This document shows, in pieces, positions 5,849-14,863 of a DNA stretch of 41,194 nt. Both the position numbers and the translations under genes were made by a program. This DNA comes from Cytophagaceae bacterium. Lineage in GTDB: Bacteria > Bacteroidota > Bacteroidia > Cytophagales > Spirosomataceae. The stretch covers positions 1 through 41,194 of the forward strand of contig CANFWR010000007.1 in assembly GCA_947450865.1 (NCBI GenBank), read 5' to 3'. Numbering within the stretch: the stretch's first letter is position 1; each line of letters starts with the position of its first letter. A model generated the notes under the pieces. The model saw only the letters and a program-made list of their open reading frames with translations, did not search any database and had not been told where the DNA came from.

Positions 5849-5853
5849 GAAAT

Positions 5854-5881
5854 AAAAAAGGCCCTTTAAGGGCCTTTTTTA
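5854..5881. terminator. Bidirectional rho-independent terminator
   Basis: AAAAAAGGCCCTT-TAA-GGGCCTTTTTT hairpin just after the peptidase stop codon. Confidence 0.85.
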
Positions 5882-5942
5882 TCAGTATATTTTTAGGTAG
5901 TGTGGTGGATTATATTCACATTGTAGAATAATCCCACTAATT

Positions 5943-6062: not shown

Positions 6063-6920
6063 CTAGCCCTTTAAAATCCGACCTATATCATTCGCCTTAC
6101 CTAATTCTTCTTTCAGCTTTTCGTAGCTGCCAGAAAGCATAAGTCCTTTGTATTTCAATAGGGTGTTGATGTATTCGTCCAAAACGTCGAGCAGATTTTC
6201 CTGATTCTGGTGGAAAATTTGGCTCCAAGTTTCAGGGGATGACTTAGCCAAACGTACAGTCGATTCGAAACCGGTGGAGGCTAGTTCGAAAATGCGGGCT
6301 TCGTTCTTTTCTTTCTCTAATACGGTATTTGCCAATGCAAAGGAACAGATGTGCGAGATGTGTGAAATATAGGCCGTGTGCATATCGTGCTCGATGGATC
6401 CCATATAGATGAGGTTCATCTCTAAACCGGTGCGGTATAAATCTTCAATCAAAGCTACCGCTGCTGGGTCGCTGAGTTCTTTGTCGCAAATGACTCCTCT
6501 TTTCCCTACGAAAAGTCCTTGAACAGCCGCTTCAGGACCCGAGAATTCGGTTCCGGCCATCGGGTGGGTAGAAACGAATTGGGCTCTTTTGGGGTGGTTT
6601 TGTAATGCCTCGAAAACAGGGGTTTTCGTAGAACCTACCTCGATGATCACTTGTCCAGGTTTTAGCGCATCCAATACCGATGGAATTAATGCCACTAATA
6701 GATCAACTGGAATCGCACAAACGAAGACGTCGACTTGGTCGATGGCATCTTGCCAAGTGGCGATGCGGTCGACGAGTCTTAACGAGAGTGCCTTTTTCTG
6801 GTGTTCAGTATTCGTATCAATACCGATGATTTCAGAAGCCCAGCCACTCTTGCGAAGACCGAGTGCGATGGATCCACCAATTAATCCGATACCGATAATA
6901 CCTACTTTATGAGATGCCAT
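6063..6920 (-). CDS. tyrA: Prephenate dehydrogenase
   Basis: MASHKVGIIGIGLIGGSIALGLRKSGW Rossmann start; STHPMAGTEFSGPEAA and HDMHTAYISHISH motifs. The ORF-track start at 7013 is upstream of the likely ATG at 6920. Confidence 0.9.
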   Translation of the reverse strand: MASHKVGIIGIGLIGGSIALGLRKSGWASEIIGIDTNTEHQKKALSLRLVDRIATWQDAIDQVDVFVCAIPVDLLVALIPSVLDALKPGQVIIEVGSTKTPVFEALQNHPKRAQFVSTHPMAGTEFSGPEAAVQGLFVGKRGVICDKELSDPAAVALIEDLYRTGLEMNLIYMGSIEHDMHTAYISHISHICSFALANTVLEKEKNEARIFELASTGFESTVRLAKSSPETWSQIFHQNQENLLDVLDEYINTLLKYKGLMLSGSYEKLKEELGKANDIGRILKG

Positions 6921-8085
6921 TGCTGTGGTTTTTGATGCGATCAATCGCTTGTGAGAAAACGGATTCTTGGGCGCAAAGTGAGATGCGGATATAGCCATCG
7001 CCTTGTGTTCCAAAGATTCCGCCCGGCGTAATGAACACCGCGTTTTCGTCTAATATTTTGTCTGAAAGCGCGTAGCCGGAGTCGAATGAGGCTGGGATTT
7101 TGGCCCAAACAAACATCCCCGACTGTGCCGGATCATACACGCAATCGAGTAAATCCAATAATTCAAATACGAGTTTTTGGCGCGAACGGTAAATGCGATT
7201 TTGATTCGCAAACCAAGCGCTGTCCGCAGAAAGAGCTTTCACCGCTGCCTGTTGCAAGGGTAAGAACATCCCAGAATCCATATTGGACTTGAACTTCAAG
7301 ACCGGTGCTAAAAACTCCGCTTTCCCAAATGCAGCCCCAATTCTCCAGCCCGCCATATTGTGGGATTTCGAAAGGGAATTCAATTCGATCGCTACATCCT
7401 GCATCCCCGGAATCGACAGCATACTCATGGGCTTTTCGTTCAGGATGAAGCTGTATGGATTATCGTTCACTAATAAGATCGAATGGCGAATAGCAAAGTC
7501 ACGCAATTCAGTAAAGAATTCCACCGTTGCTTGCGCACCCGTAGGCATGTGCGGGTAGTTCACCCACATGATTTTCACCTTGGAAAGGTCACGCTTTTCT
7601 AACGCCTTTAAATCAGGTAACCAACCCGTAGAGGCTGATAATTCATAGCTTTCTACCGTCGCACCAGCTAAAGAACAAGCCGCAGAATAGGTCGGGTAGC
7701 CCGGATTAGGAATCAAAGTCACATCTCCTTTTTCTAAATAGGCCATGGCGATGTGCATGATGCCCTCTTTGGAACCGATCAAAGGTAAAATCTCCGAAGC
7801 GGGATTAACCGTAACGCCATAATGAGACGCATAAAATGAAGCGAATGCCTCGCGCAAAGCAGGAATACCTTGGTAACCTTGGTAAGCGTGATGCGAAGGG
7901 TTCGCCGCGCTTTCCGTCAAAGCCGCGATGGTCTCAGACGACGGCGCTAAGTCAGGGGATCCGATACCTAAGTTAATGATAGGTACGCCAGATTCCTTTA
8001 AAGCCGCGATCTGCTTCAATTTCTTAGAGAAATAGTATTCCTCCACGCTGTTTAAGCGGCTAGCCGCTGTGATGTGTAAGCTCAT
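6907..8085 (-). CDS. PLP-dependent aminotransferase, class I/II (probable aromatic aminotransferase)
   Basis: NLGIGSPDL, NPGYPTYSAA, VNYPHMPTGA, and PLP-lysine motif SLSKSHNMAGWRIG. Likely start MSLHITAASRLN at 8085. 14-bp overlap with tyrA. Confidence 0.9.
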   Translation of the reverse strand: MSLHITAASRLNSVEEYYFSKKLKQIAALKESGVPIINLGIGSPDLAPSSETIAALTESAANPSHHAYQGYQGIPALREAFASFYASHYGVTVNPASEILPLIGSKEGIMHIAMAYLEKGDVTLIPNPGYPTYSAACSLAGATVESYELSASTGWLPDLKALEKRDLSKVKIMWVNYPHMPTGAQATVEFFTELRDFAIRHSILLVNDNPYSFILNEKPMSMLSIPGMQDVAIELNSLSKSHNMAGWRIGAAFGKAEFLAPVLKFKSNMDSGMFLPLQQAAVKALSADSAWFANQNRIYRSRQKLVFELLDLLDCVYDPAQSGMFVWAKIPASFDSGYALSDKILDENAVFITPGGIFGTQGDGYIRISLCAQESVFSQAIDRIKNHSNGIS

Positions 8086-8113
8086 AAAACAAAAAACCGA
8101 CGTAAAGTCGGCT
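8086..8113 (-). terminator. Attenuator terminator (arms 3:4) of the tyrosine leader
   Basis: Minus strand AGCCGAC-TTTAC-GTCGGTT then TTTTGTTTT. 7-bp stem (including one G-U) plus U-tract ending at the aminotransferase ATG. Confidence 0.75.
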
Positions 8114-8143
8114 GATATAATTGACAAAAAACTATATAACCGA
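8108..8143 (-). promoter_or_regulatory. Candidate antiterminator (arms 2:3)
   Basis: Minus strand TCGGTTATATA (8143-8133) pairs with TATAT-C-AGCCGA (8119-8108): 11 bp with one bulged C. It sequesters the 5' arm of the terminator. Confidence 0.65.
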
Positions 8144-8209
8144 TTAGGCAGCGTTGTAATAACCTGCGTAATAATACCCTGTTGTATAGTTGATTGCGTG
8201 GGAATTCAT
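8144..8209 (-). CDS. Tyrosine-rich attenuator leader peptide MNSHAINYTTGYYYAGYYNAA (not in supplied ORF track)
   Basis: 21-codon ORF with six Tyr codons (TAT, TAT TAT TAC, TAT TAC). Stop codon lies immediately before the antiterminator arm, upstream of the aminotransferase-tyrA genes. Confidence 0.8.
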   Translation of the reverse strand: MNSHAINYTTGYYYAGYYNAA

Positions 8210-8213
8210 ATGT

Positions 8214-8244
8214 CAAAGGTAGGAAAAAATTACTTTTATGCAAA
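8214..8244 (-). promoter_or_regulatory. Bacteroidetes-type promoter for the tyrosine leader
   Basis: Minus strand TTTG (8244-8241), 19-nt spacer, TACCTTTG (8221-8214). Matches the established TTTG...TAnnTTTG consensus exactly. Confidence 0.75.
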
Positions 8245-11874: not shown

Positions 11875-13785
11875 ATGCCTACAGCTCAAGCAGAACCTTT
11901 AAAAATTGTCATTGATTTCGATAGCACATTCACGAAAGTGGAAGGGCTCGATGAATTAGCGAGAATCGCGCTTCAAGGAAATCCGAAGCAAGCAGAGATC
12001 GTGGGAAAGATCAAGGATATCACCGACCAAGGGATGGTAGGGGCCTATTCTTTCGCCGATTCTTTACGTGACCGTGTCGCTTTATTGCCGGCAAATCGCT
12101 CGCACGTGGATCAATTGGTCGTCTTTTTAAAAGGTAAAATCTCGGAGTCATTTAAGCGCAACAAGGATTTTCTAGAAGAAAACGCCGCACAAATCTTAAT
12201 CGTTTCCTCTGGTTTCAAAGACTTTATTGTTCCCGTAGTGAACGAGATGGGTATCCCAGCGGAAAACGTATATGCGAATACTTTCACATACGATGCGGAA
12301 GGCAATATTACCGGTTATGATGCGGACAATTTATTGTCTCAAGACAAAGGAAAGGTTCGTTTACTGCAATCGCTTCAATTAGAAGGGGAGGTTTATGTGA
12401 TCGGTGATGGTATCACGGATTACGAATTACGCGAGTCTGGATTAGCGAATAAGTTCTTTGCTTTCACGGAGAACGTGTCGCGCAAGGCGGTGACGGATAA
12501 AGCTGATTTTATTGTTCCCTCTTTAGACGAATTTTTATACATCAATGGTTTAAGCCGTGCGCAATCGTATCCTAAATCACGTATCAAAGTTCTTTTATTA
12601 GAAAACGTGCACCCAGGTGCCGTTCAGGCATTCAAGAAAGAAGGTTTCCAAGTGGAACTTTTGAAAGGTGCTTTGGATGAGGAGGAGTTGATCGAAAAGA
12701 TCAAGGATGTGTCTATCATCGGTTTGCGTTCGAAAACGAATTTGACGAAAAAAGTTTTGGAACACCCGAATGCCTCTCGCTTGATGTGTGTAGGTGCTTT
12801 CTGTATCGGTACAAACCAAATCGATTTAGTAGAATGTGAGAAGCGTGGAATCGCGGTGTTTAATGCGCCGTATTCTAATACGCGTTCGGTAGTGGAATTG
12901 TCTATCGGTTTGATGGTGATGTTGACACGTAATATCTTCGAGAAATCGACGAAAATGCACGCGGGTGTTTGGGATAAATCAGCGACGAATTCGTACGAGA
13001 TTAGAGGTAAGAAAATTGGTTTAGTGGGTTATGGAAGTATCGGTACGCAGATTTCCGTGATTGCGGAGGCGCTGGGTATGGAAGTGTATTTCTATGACTC
13101 TGTAGATAAATTAGCTTTAGGCAATGCCAAAAAATGCAGCAGCCTGAAAGAGTTATTGTCGCAAGTGGATTTTGTGAGTTTGCACGTGGATGGTCGTAAG
13201 TCGAACACGAACATCATCGGTAAGGAGCAATTCTCTTGGATGAAAGACAATGTCATCTTCTTGAACTTGTCACGTGGCCACGTGGTCGAAATTCCGGCTT
13301 TAGTGGAGGCGATCAAGACGGGTAAAGTGTGGGGAGCGGCGATTGACGTATTCCCGTATGAGCCGAAGACGAATGATGAAGAGTTTTTGAACGAATTGCG
13401 CGGATTACCTAACGTGATTTTGACGCCGCACATCGGTGGTAGCACGGAGGAGGCGCAGCAAAATATTGGCGAATTCGTGCCAGCGAAGTTGTTGCAATTT
13501 ATGAACAACGGTAGTACGTATGGTTCGGTGAATTTCCCAGAATTGCAATTGCCTCCATTAGAGGATGCGCACCGATTGTTGCATATTCACCACAATGTGC
13601 CGGGGATTTTGGCCCAAATCAACCAAATCTTCGCGAAATACCACGTAAACATCATCGGTCAATACTTAAAGACGACGGAGAATACGGGTTATGTGATTAC
13701 GGATGTGGCCAAAGAATACTCGGATGAGATCGTCAGTGAATTAAGACTGATCGATAACACCATTAAGTTTAGAATGTTATATTAA
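11875..13785 (+). CDS. Fused HAD-IB phosphoserine phosphatase-like domain + D-3-phosphoglycerate dehydrogenase with C-terminal ACT domain
   Basis: N-terminal HAD motifs DFDST, SSGF, GDGITDYE. C-terminal GLVGYGSIGTQ, NLSRGHVVEIPAL, AAIDVFPYEP, TPHIGGSTEEAQ and ACT-like NVPGILAQINQIFAKYHVNI. Confidence 0.9.
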   Translation: MPTAQAEPLKIVIDFDSTFTKVEGLDELARIALQGNPKQAEIVGKIKDITDQGMVGAYSFADSLRDRVALLPANRSHVDQLVVFLKGKISESFKRNKDFLEENAAQILIVSSGFKDFIVPVVNEMGIPAENVYANTFTYDAEGNITGYDADNLLSQDKGKVRLLQSLQLEGEVYVIGDGITDYELRESGLANKFFAFTENVSRKAVTDKADFIVPSLDEFLYINGLSRAQSYPKSRIKVLLLENVHPGAVQAFKKEGFQVELLKGALDEEELIEKIKDVSIIGLRSKTNLTKKVLEHPNASRLMCVGAFCIGTNQIDLVECEKRGIAVFNAPYSNTRSVVELSIGLMVMLTRNIFEKSTKMHAGVWDKSATNSYEIRGKKIGLVGYGSIGTQISVIAEALGMEVYFYDSVDKLALGNAKKCSSLKELLSQVDFVSLHVDGRKSNTNIIGKEQFSWMKDNVIFLNLSRGHVVEIPALVEAIKTGKVWGAAIDVFPYEPKTNDEEFLNELRGLPNVILTPHIGGSTEEAQQNIGEFVPAKLLQFMNNGSTYGSVNFPELQLPPLEDAHRLLHIHHNVPGILAQINQIFAKYHVNIIGQYLKTTENTGYVITDVAKEYSDEIVSELRLIDNTIKFRMLY

Positions 13786-13786
13786 T

Positions 13787-14863
13787 ATGAGCACCTTTTT
13801 TACCCCCGGCCCTGCGGCCTTATTTCCTACGGTTCAGTCCCATTACATGGAGGCTTTTCGTTTAAACCTCGGTTCGATTTCCCATCGTTCCGCAGCTTTC
13901 CGTAAGATCTACCAGCACGCAGACGAGCAATTGCGCGAATTATTCGCCTTGCCTAAGAGCCACGCGGTCCTATTTACGGGATCTGCGACGGAGGTATGGG
14001 AGCGTATCATTATGAATACGGTTGAACACGAGAGTTTTCACCTGGTGAACGGTTCGTTTTCGAAGAAGTTTTTTGATTTCGCGAAGGACTTGCACAAGTA
14101 TGCGAATTCGATGCACAAGCCTTTTGGCGAGGGTTTCGATGCTTCAGAAGTGGAAGTACCGGAATATGCGGAATTGATTTGCTGTACAGCGAACGAGACG
14201 AGTTCGGGTGTTCAGATGAAGGCTTCGGAGATCCATAAGATCAAGAAGGCGAACAAGGACAAGTTTGTGGCGGTGGATATGGTTTCCTCTGCGCCTTACC
14301 CGAATCTTGATTTTGGTTTAGTAGACTCAGCCTTTTTTAGTGTCCAAAAATCGTTCGGAATGCCTGCTGGTCTAGGTGTTTGGTTTGCGAATGAGGCGAT
14401 GCTAGAGAAGTCAGAGCGTATGAAAAAACACGAGGGAATTGTGGGGACGTATCACTCCTTGCCAAGCCTTTGGGAAAATTACAAGAATTTTGAAACGCCA
14501 GAAACACCTAATGTGATGGCGATTTATGTATTAGGCAAAGTGGCGGAGGATTTTAACCGAATTGGGGTGGAGAATATCCGCAAGGAGACGGATAAAAAAG
14601 CGAAGGCTTTGTATGATTTTGCGAAGAAATCGGATAACTTCGAAATATTCGTGGAGAATGAAAATCACCGTTCAGCGACTGTTGTGGTATTAAACTGCAA
14701 GGAGGGATCGTCTAAAGTGATCAATACGATTAAAGAGAGAAGCGATATGATTATTGGGGCTGGATATGGTAAATTGAAAGAAACCCAAATCCGCATCGCG
14801 AATTTCCCTGCAGTAAATATGGACCAAGTTCAGGCTTTAATAACTGAATTAGGTTCGCTTTAA
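13787..14863 (+). CDS. Class V aminotransferase, probable phosphoserine aminotransferase
   Basis: FTPGPAALFP start, ISHRSAAFRKIY, VDMVSSAPY, FFSVQKSFGMPAGLGVW (PLP lysine). Directly follows the SerB-SerA fusion. Confidence 0.82.
   Translation: MSTFFTPGPAALFPTVQSHYMEAFRLNLGSISHRSAAFRKIYQHADEQLRELFALPKSHAVLFTGSATEVWERIIMNTVEHESFHLVNGSFSKKFFDFAKDLHKYANSMHKPFGEGFDASEVEVPEYAELICCTANETSSGVQMKASEIHKIKKANKDKFVAVDMVSSAPYPNLDFGLVDSAFFSVQKSFGMPAGLGVWFANEAMLEKSERMKKHEGIVGTYHSLPSLWENYKNFETPETPNVMAIYVLGKVAEDFNRIGVENIRKETDKKAKALYDFAKKSDNFEIFVENENHRSATVVVLNCKEGSSKVINTIKERSDMIIGAGYGKLKETQIRIANFPAVNMDQVQALITELGSL

Follow-up and report, generated by a model that had tools for sequence, protein, structure and literature searches.

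A putative tyrosine-responsive leader-peptide attenuator upstream of the aminotransferase-tyrA operon of Aquirufa and related Bacteroidota

The aminotransferase-tyrA locus and its leader region

The DNA analysed here (the window, 41,194 nt at its full length) is part of an Aquirufa genome, and near-identical loci are found, among others, in A. antheringensis. Aquirufa is a freshwater bacterium. A class I/II aminotransferase gene (minus strand, 6907..8085, ATG at 8085) is the first gene of an operon in which it is followed by tyrA, encoding a prephenate dehydrogenase (minus strand, 6063..6920; match to NF006307 above cut-off). With the tyrA ATG placed at 6920, as its translation suggests, the two reading frames would overlap by 14 nt. 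The upstream side of the leader region is occupied by the hemA-recX genes, with the end of recX at 8236. Past tyrA and a convergent gene, at 5851-5883, lies an almost perfect inverted repeat flanked on each side by A/T runs; the terminator scan calls it on both strands. Elsewhere in the window, on the plus strand (11875-14863), one ORF seems from its translation to fuse a phosphoserine-phosphatase-like N-terminus with a D-3-phosphoglycerate-dehydrogenase-like part, and a serC-like aminotransferase, likewise read from translation, follows immediately, which would make this a compact serine operon.

An earlier note on this DNA had described, on the minus strand ahead of the aminotransferase gene, a promoter, a tyrosine-rich leader ORF and a set of alternative RNA arms. 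Its promoter, TTTG-N19-TACCTTTG at 8244-8214, is found at these coordinates on direct reading, with a -33 element TTTG (8241..8244) and, 19 nt further on, a -7 box TACCTTTG (8214..8221) corresponding to the Bacteroidota TAnnTTTG. The 21-codon ORF proposed at 8209-8144 agrees base for base with the sequence: the leader peptide MNSHAINYTTGYYYAGYYNAA (8144..8209) contains 6 Tyr and neither Phe nor Trp. Three consecutive Tyr codons, TAT TAT TAC (leader codons 12-14, 8168..8176), make up the putative regulatory run, the other Tyr codons being numbers 8, 17 and 18. This leader is alone among the window's 1228 short ORFs (10-30 aa) in having five Tyr or more, and of 20,000 dinucleotide-shuffled versions of the region, 39 contain an ORF with six or more.

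Arm 1, CTATACAAC (8181..8189), the proposed pre-emptor strand for arm 2, lies inside the leader ORF, and arm 2, TCGGTTATATA (8133..8143), begins right after the leader stop codon. Arm 3, TATATCAGCCGAC (8107..8119), is both the antiterminator partner of arm 2 and the 5' strand of a terminator whose 3' strand is arm 4, GTCGGTT (8095..8101). The U-rich tract of this intrinsic terminator, TTTTTTGTTTT (8086..8096), reaches the aminotransferase ATG. The previously proposed pairing of arm 2 (8143-8133) with TATAT-C-AGCCGA (8119-8108) holds as to its coordinates, and the terminator AGCCGAC-TTTAC-GTCGGTT with its U-tract was also recovered by a consensus scan, at 8113-8095 with a tail to 8086. This region has no match at the curated cut-off to any Rfam leader family (trp, his, phe, leu and thr leaders, T-box), the matches obtained being at chance level only, and no Rfam match was obtained in five further loci.

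In all Aquirufa members the end of the -7 box is separated by 4 nt from the leader ATG, and in the Arcicella/Flectobacillus types by 4-5 nt; TTG(C) is found 19 nt upstream of the box at every Aquirufa locus, and in Siphonobacter-type members the box is farther upstream or not recognised. In Flavobacterium psychrophilum, the -7 box spans -12 to -5 relative to the transcription start site (PMC9723704), a spacing that together with the 4-nt gap predicts a start at the A of the leader ATG (8209). The leader mRNA would thus probably be leaderless, a property of only 5.5% of mRNAs in F. psychrophilum (PMC9723704); in Bacteroides thetaiotaomicron, 5' UTRs shorter than 10 nt make up ~3.7% (PMC7366714).

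Conservation of the leader and of its RNA arms

On sequence grounds, the decisive support for this feature being real is its conservation across genera. Orthologous loci without Tyr-rich short ORFs had been named in the earlier note as evidence that would speak against its reading; instead, a Tyr-rich leader ORF with an attenuator is kept at 65 aminotransferase loci. The leader precedes the aminotransferase gene in every Aquirufa genome for which the upstream region is available, and it is found in a genus neighbouring Aquirufa (L125), in Flectobacillus, Arcicella, Pseudarcicella and Siphonobacter, and in further genera. Spirosoma/Dyadobacter-like members of the same family have a different aminotransferase (~48% identical) without the leader. 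In most leader-bearing loci tyrA follows the aminotransferase gene; it is absent beside it at L050 and L055. L125 has an extra ORF, by eye similar to a PIN-domain toxin, that comes after recX and before the Tyr leader, ~190 nt ahead of the aminotransferase gene.

The 43 distinct leader ORFs contain 260 Tyr among 796 residues after the start Met (33%), against 24 Phe and 0 Trp, with Tyr encoded by 141 TAT and 119 TAC codons; MDFKSTTYYAGYYYAGYYVCA, MNFENKTYYIGYYYAGYFHCA, MIMHSTTYYYAYYYAGYPSCQ, MNNSANTYRTYYYYYAQ and MATILYTASYYYYYANA are examples from relatives. Elsewhere in these loci, which together span 1.59 million strand-bases, hardly any Tyr-rich short ORF occurs: the matches are the known leaders read from other start codons and Phe/Tyr leaders of Hymenobacter. 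A search with a narrow DNA pattern found no Tyr leader beyond the known site in the window's own genome, and in genome G345 the same kind of search gave a single match, beside tyrA.

The RNA arms are kept as well. In the window and its relatives a hairpin with a U-tract, as in an intrinsic terminator, lies between the leader and the first gene, and the sequence directly after the leader stop complements the terminator 5' strand in representatives of every lineage, with L032-type members pairing less well. The distance of arm 2 from the stop is no more than a few nt in nearly all representatives. Arms 2, 3 and 4 of the representatives were aligned on the terminator core, and the covariation that the earlier note had suggested looking for is present in both helices. 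At position a6, the 2:3 pair is A-T in 12, G-C in 7 and G-T in 3 representatives, the double change from A-T to G-C affecting 2:3 and 3:4 together; both helices likewise change from C-G to T-A in L177 and from G-C to T-A in L059. Permuting partners among sequences gave p values of 0.013 for 2:3 and 0.0004 for 3:4, with a statistic that ignores relatedness. An antiterminator that excludes the terminator is conserved with compensatory changes. Swapping arms 2 and 3 across lineages barely discriminated, since the arm cores are conserved in sequence. Shuffling single sequences and counting uninterrupted helices only gave weak p values for 2:3 in Aquirufa members (0.04-0.85) because this test ignores bulges, and alignment-based pair counts were therefore used.

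The claim made for arm 1 stands in part. The arm is present at 8189-8181 and its pairing with arm 2 is supported over the combined lineages (Fisher p 6e-5 against shuffles, 7e-4 against synonymous recodings); in the window sequence taken alone, where it is weak, the pairing does not stand out against shuffles (p 0.12) or synonymous recodings (p 0.46), and the same tests gave no support for it in L032 alone.

A predicted ribosome-mediated switch and its alternatives

A short ORF, predicted to be translated and rich in codons for the pathway product, precedes the aminotransferase-tyrA genes together with two mutually exclusive hairpins, and we consider it very probable that this region attenuates transcription of the operon in response to tyrosine, through the ribosome, in the manner of the trp/his/phe attenuators. 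From the sequence, we infer coupling, stalling and termination in the cell as follows. Transcription would start at, or about one base from, the leader AUG, and a ribosome would translate the 21-codon leader close behind the RNA polymerase. Were Tyr-tRNA scarce, the ribosome would stall on the Tyr codons and leave arm 2 free to pair with arm 3 ahead of the synthesis of arm 4, so that no terminator would form and the operon would be transcribed. With Tyr-tRNA plentiful, the ribosome would reach the stop codon and cover arm 2, the 3:4 terminator would form, and transcription would stop just upstream of the aminotransferase gene. In an untranslated leader, arm 1 would tend to occupy arm 2, favouring termination; this is the weakest step of the model. 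Bacteria of this kind hardly use Shine-Dalgarno sequences. The leaderless start, if true, would let ribosomes load on the emerging 5' end of the RNA, a simple way to keep translation near the polymerase.

Folding models of the nascent RNA are consistent with this attenuator. With a ribosome placed on the Tyr run, the 2:3 helix forms with a probability of 0.77-1.0 in 20 of 22 representatives, the exceptions being L007 (0.01) and L032 (0.40), and with a ribosome at the stop the terminator has a probability of ~1.0 in all representatives. In a codon-by-codon scan of five members with ribosome footprints of 11, 13 and 15 nt, no position on a Tyr codon abolishes the antiterminator (it drops to about half only at the last Tyr of L051 with the 15-nt footprint), and it disappears a few codons after the last Tyr, by the stop. 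The earlier proposal that a ribosome stalled on Tyr frees arm 2 and one at the stop masks it is thereby reproduced in the model, the switch point falling just past the last Tyr codon in all five members with the 11- and 13-nt footprints. In several Arcicella/Flectobacillus-type members, the terminator is more stable than the antiterminator at equilibrium, and these switches must therefore be kinetic.

The hairpin could instead act on translation, by hiding the aminotransferase start until leader translation exposes it, or through a ribosome that re-initiates downstream. Such masking is conceivable in Aquirufa, where 9-11 nt separate the stem from the gene (9 nt from the aminotransferase ATG in the window genome); in other genera, however, this distance is 12-98 nt, mostly at least 19, without loss of the U-tract or the antiterminator, and transcription termination is therefore the feature common to all. 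We regard translational attenuation as very unlikely, and masking could act additionally in Aquirufa only. Even less credible is a hairpin that merely terminates the upstream hemA-recX genes beside a coincidental Tyr-rich ORF. It has the form of a normal terminator and recX ends directly upstream, at 8236, yet recX and the leader have a promoter between them, an extra ORF intervenes at L125, and recX was not detected upstream at L051, L056, L166, L180 and L186 (some with little upstream sequence). The leader, arm 2 and terminator remain with the aminotransferase gene; moreover, a plain terminator needs no arm shortly after a stop codon that matches its own 5' arm. It is just as improbable that the leader is a small trans-acting protein whose Tyr richness reflects protein function and not codon sensing, for although the Aquirufa leaders share a strongly conserved YYYAGY core, across genera only the Tyr richness is kept while the remaining peptide and its length vary, and Phe/Tyr mixes replace Tyr where the operon includes pheA.

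Leader codons, operon content and known attenuators

The attenuator reading is also in line with the leaders of other aromatic operons: the earlier note had argued that the enriched codon matches the downstream product, and across Bacteroidota the identity of the leader codons does track operon content. Among operons that start with pheA (Chitinophaga, Saprospiraceae, Hymenobacter, Flavobacteriaceae, Bacteroidales), leaders of mixed composition were found at 56 of 71 loci, and their 63 distinct peptides contain 315 Phe, 225 Tyr and 25 Trp, all but two (61/63) having at least 2 Phe. The 34 distinct peptides of aminotransferase-first operons, a group partly chosen by a Tyr criterion, contain 203 Tyr against 19 Phe; no Phe/Tyr/Trp-rich leader of any kind was found in the other loci of this operon type. 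Within the Tyr-leader clade itself, trpE is preceded by a Trp leader of the MTKATYNKNWWQG or MTTNFKNTSWWWQLTNVR type in 12/12 Spirosomaceae genomes examined (L241-L252), with an NGWQG variant in two. No His leader was seen upstream of hisG and no convincing Phe leader upstream of pheA in genomes of this clade, where some start codons are uncertain and L223 was left out. Since the same aminotransferase-tyrA genes have Phe/Tyr leaders beside pheA and Tyr-only leaders without it, the codons of a leader seem to evolve together with the gene content of its operon, and the leaders with and without a linked pheA amount to a natural experiment.

Several further features were observed at these operons. 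A terminator-like hairpin comes next after the Trp leaders of trpE (L241-L252). The pheA-aminotransferase operons of Bacteroidota (L057-L124; for instance L063, L088, L102 and L107) have Phe/Tyr-rich leaders with terminators, such as MKANSNWFYFFFYFYFNQSSRVVFVKA and MLQRFSLYFFYFFFYFFYVVKAGTLL. Two leader matches lie in series before pheA at L061, L062, L064, L069, L071, L081, L083, L113, L118 and L135, and the first seven of these look like tandem attenuators, with two complete aromatic leaders that each have their own terminator.

In a midpoint-rooted tree, the Tyr-only loci fall into one clade (support 99/100) that is nested among the Phe/Tyr loci and also contains two leaderless rows from another family. 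An aminotransferase inside the Tyr-leader clade, with no leader seen, was observed in L126-L128, from another family of the order, suggesting transfer or loss.

The mechanism proposed here is classical trp-type attenuation and as such already known, and its specificity for Tyr alone is apparently new. The enterobacterial attenuators of pheA (pheL) and trp (trpL) share with it a short leader ORF rich in end-product codons, a 2:3 antiterminator competing with a 3:4 terminator, and a U-tract before the first gene; they differ in that here the codons are Tyr, the promoter is of the Bacteroidota type and the leader mRNA is predicted to be leaderless. Termination at tyrS in Firmicutes is under the control of a tyrosine T-box, which resembles the present case in sensing Tyr supply through tRNA but binds the tRNA directly and has no leader ORF; a tyrS of this phylum is that of Enterococcus durans (PMC3315439). 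The aroR leader of the aroF operon of Corynebacterium glutamicum is another attenuator of the aromatic pathway with Tyr in its peptide (Phe-Tyr-Phe); it precedes a different gene, has one Tyr only in the reported motif, and is reported to respond to Phe limitation and not to Tyr availability (PMC11802643). Putative attenuators before tyrA-containing operons were listed in 2005, including pheA-hisHb-aroA/aroQ-tyrA of B. thetaiotaomicron (PMC1173090, Table 7); attenuation was already predicted for tyrA operons in Bacteroidota, although the list comes from an automatic attenuator database and its tyrA rows give no Tyr leader peptide. We found no description of a Tyr-specific leader attenuator in the searchable literature, which covers few subscription papers and makes such absence weak evidence.

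Whether this is the first leader-peptide attenuator for tyrosine alone, acting from a leaderless leader ORF and arisen a single time, through specialisation of an ancestral Phe/Tyr leader to Tyr codons as the aminotransferase-tyrA pair parted from pheA in one Bacteroidota lineage, we judge to be evenly balanced. In F. psychrophilum, strong clues point to leader-peptide attenuation upstream of amino-acid operons (PMC9723704), and control of this kind has been little studied in the phylum. The Tyr leader most likely lets the cell turn off its tyrosine genes when tyrosine is plentiful; if this is true, tyrosine would join the amino acids that are sensed through leader-peptide attenuation.
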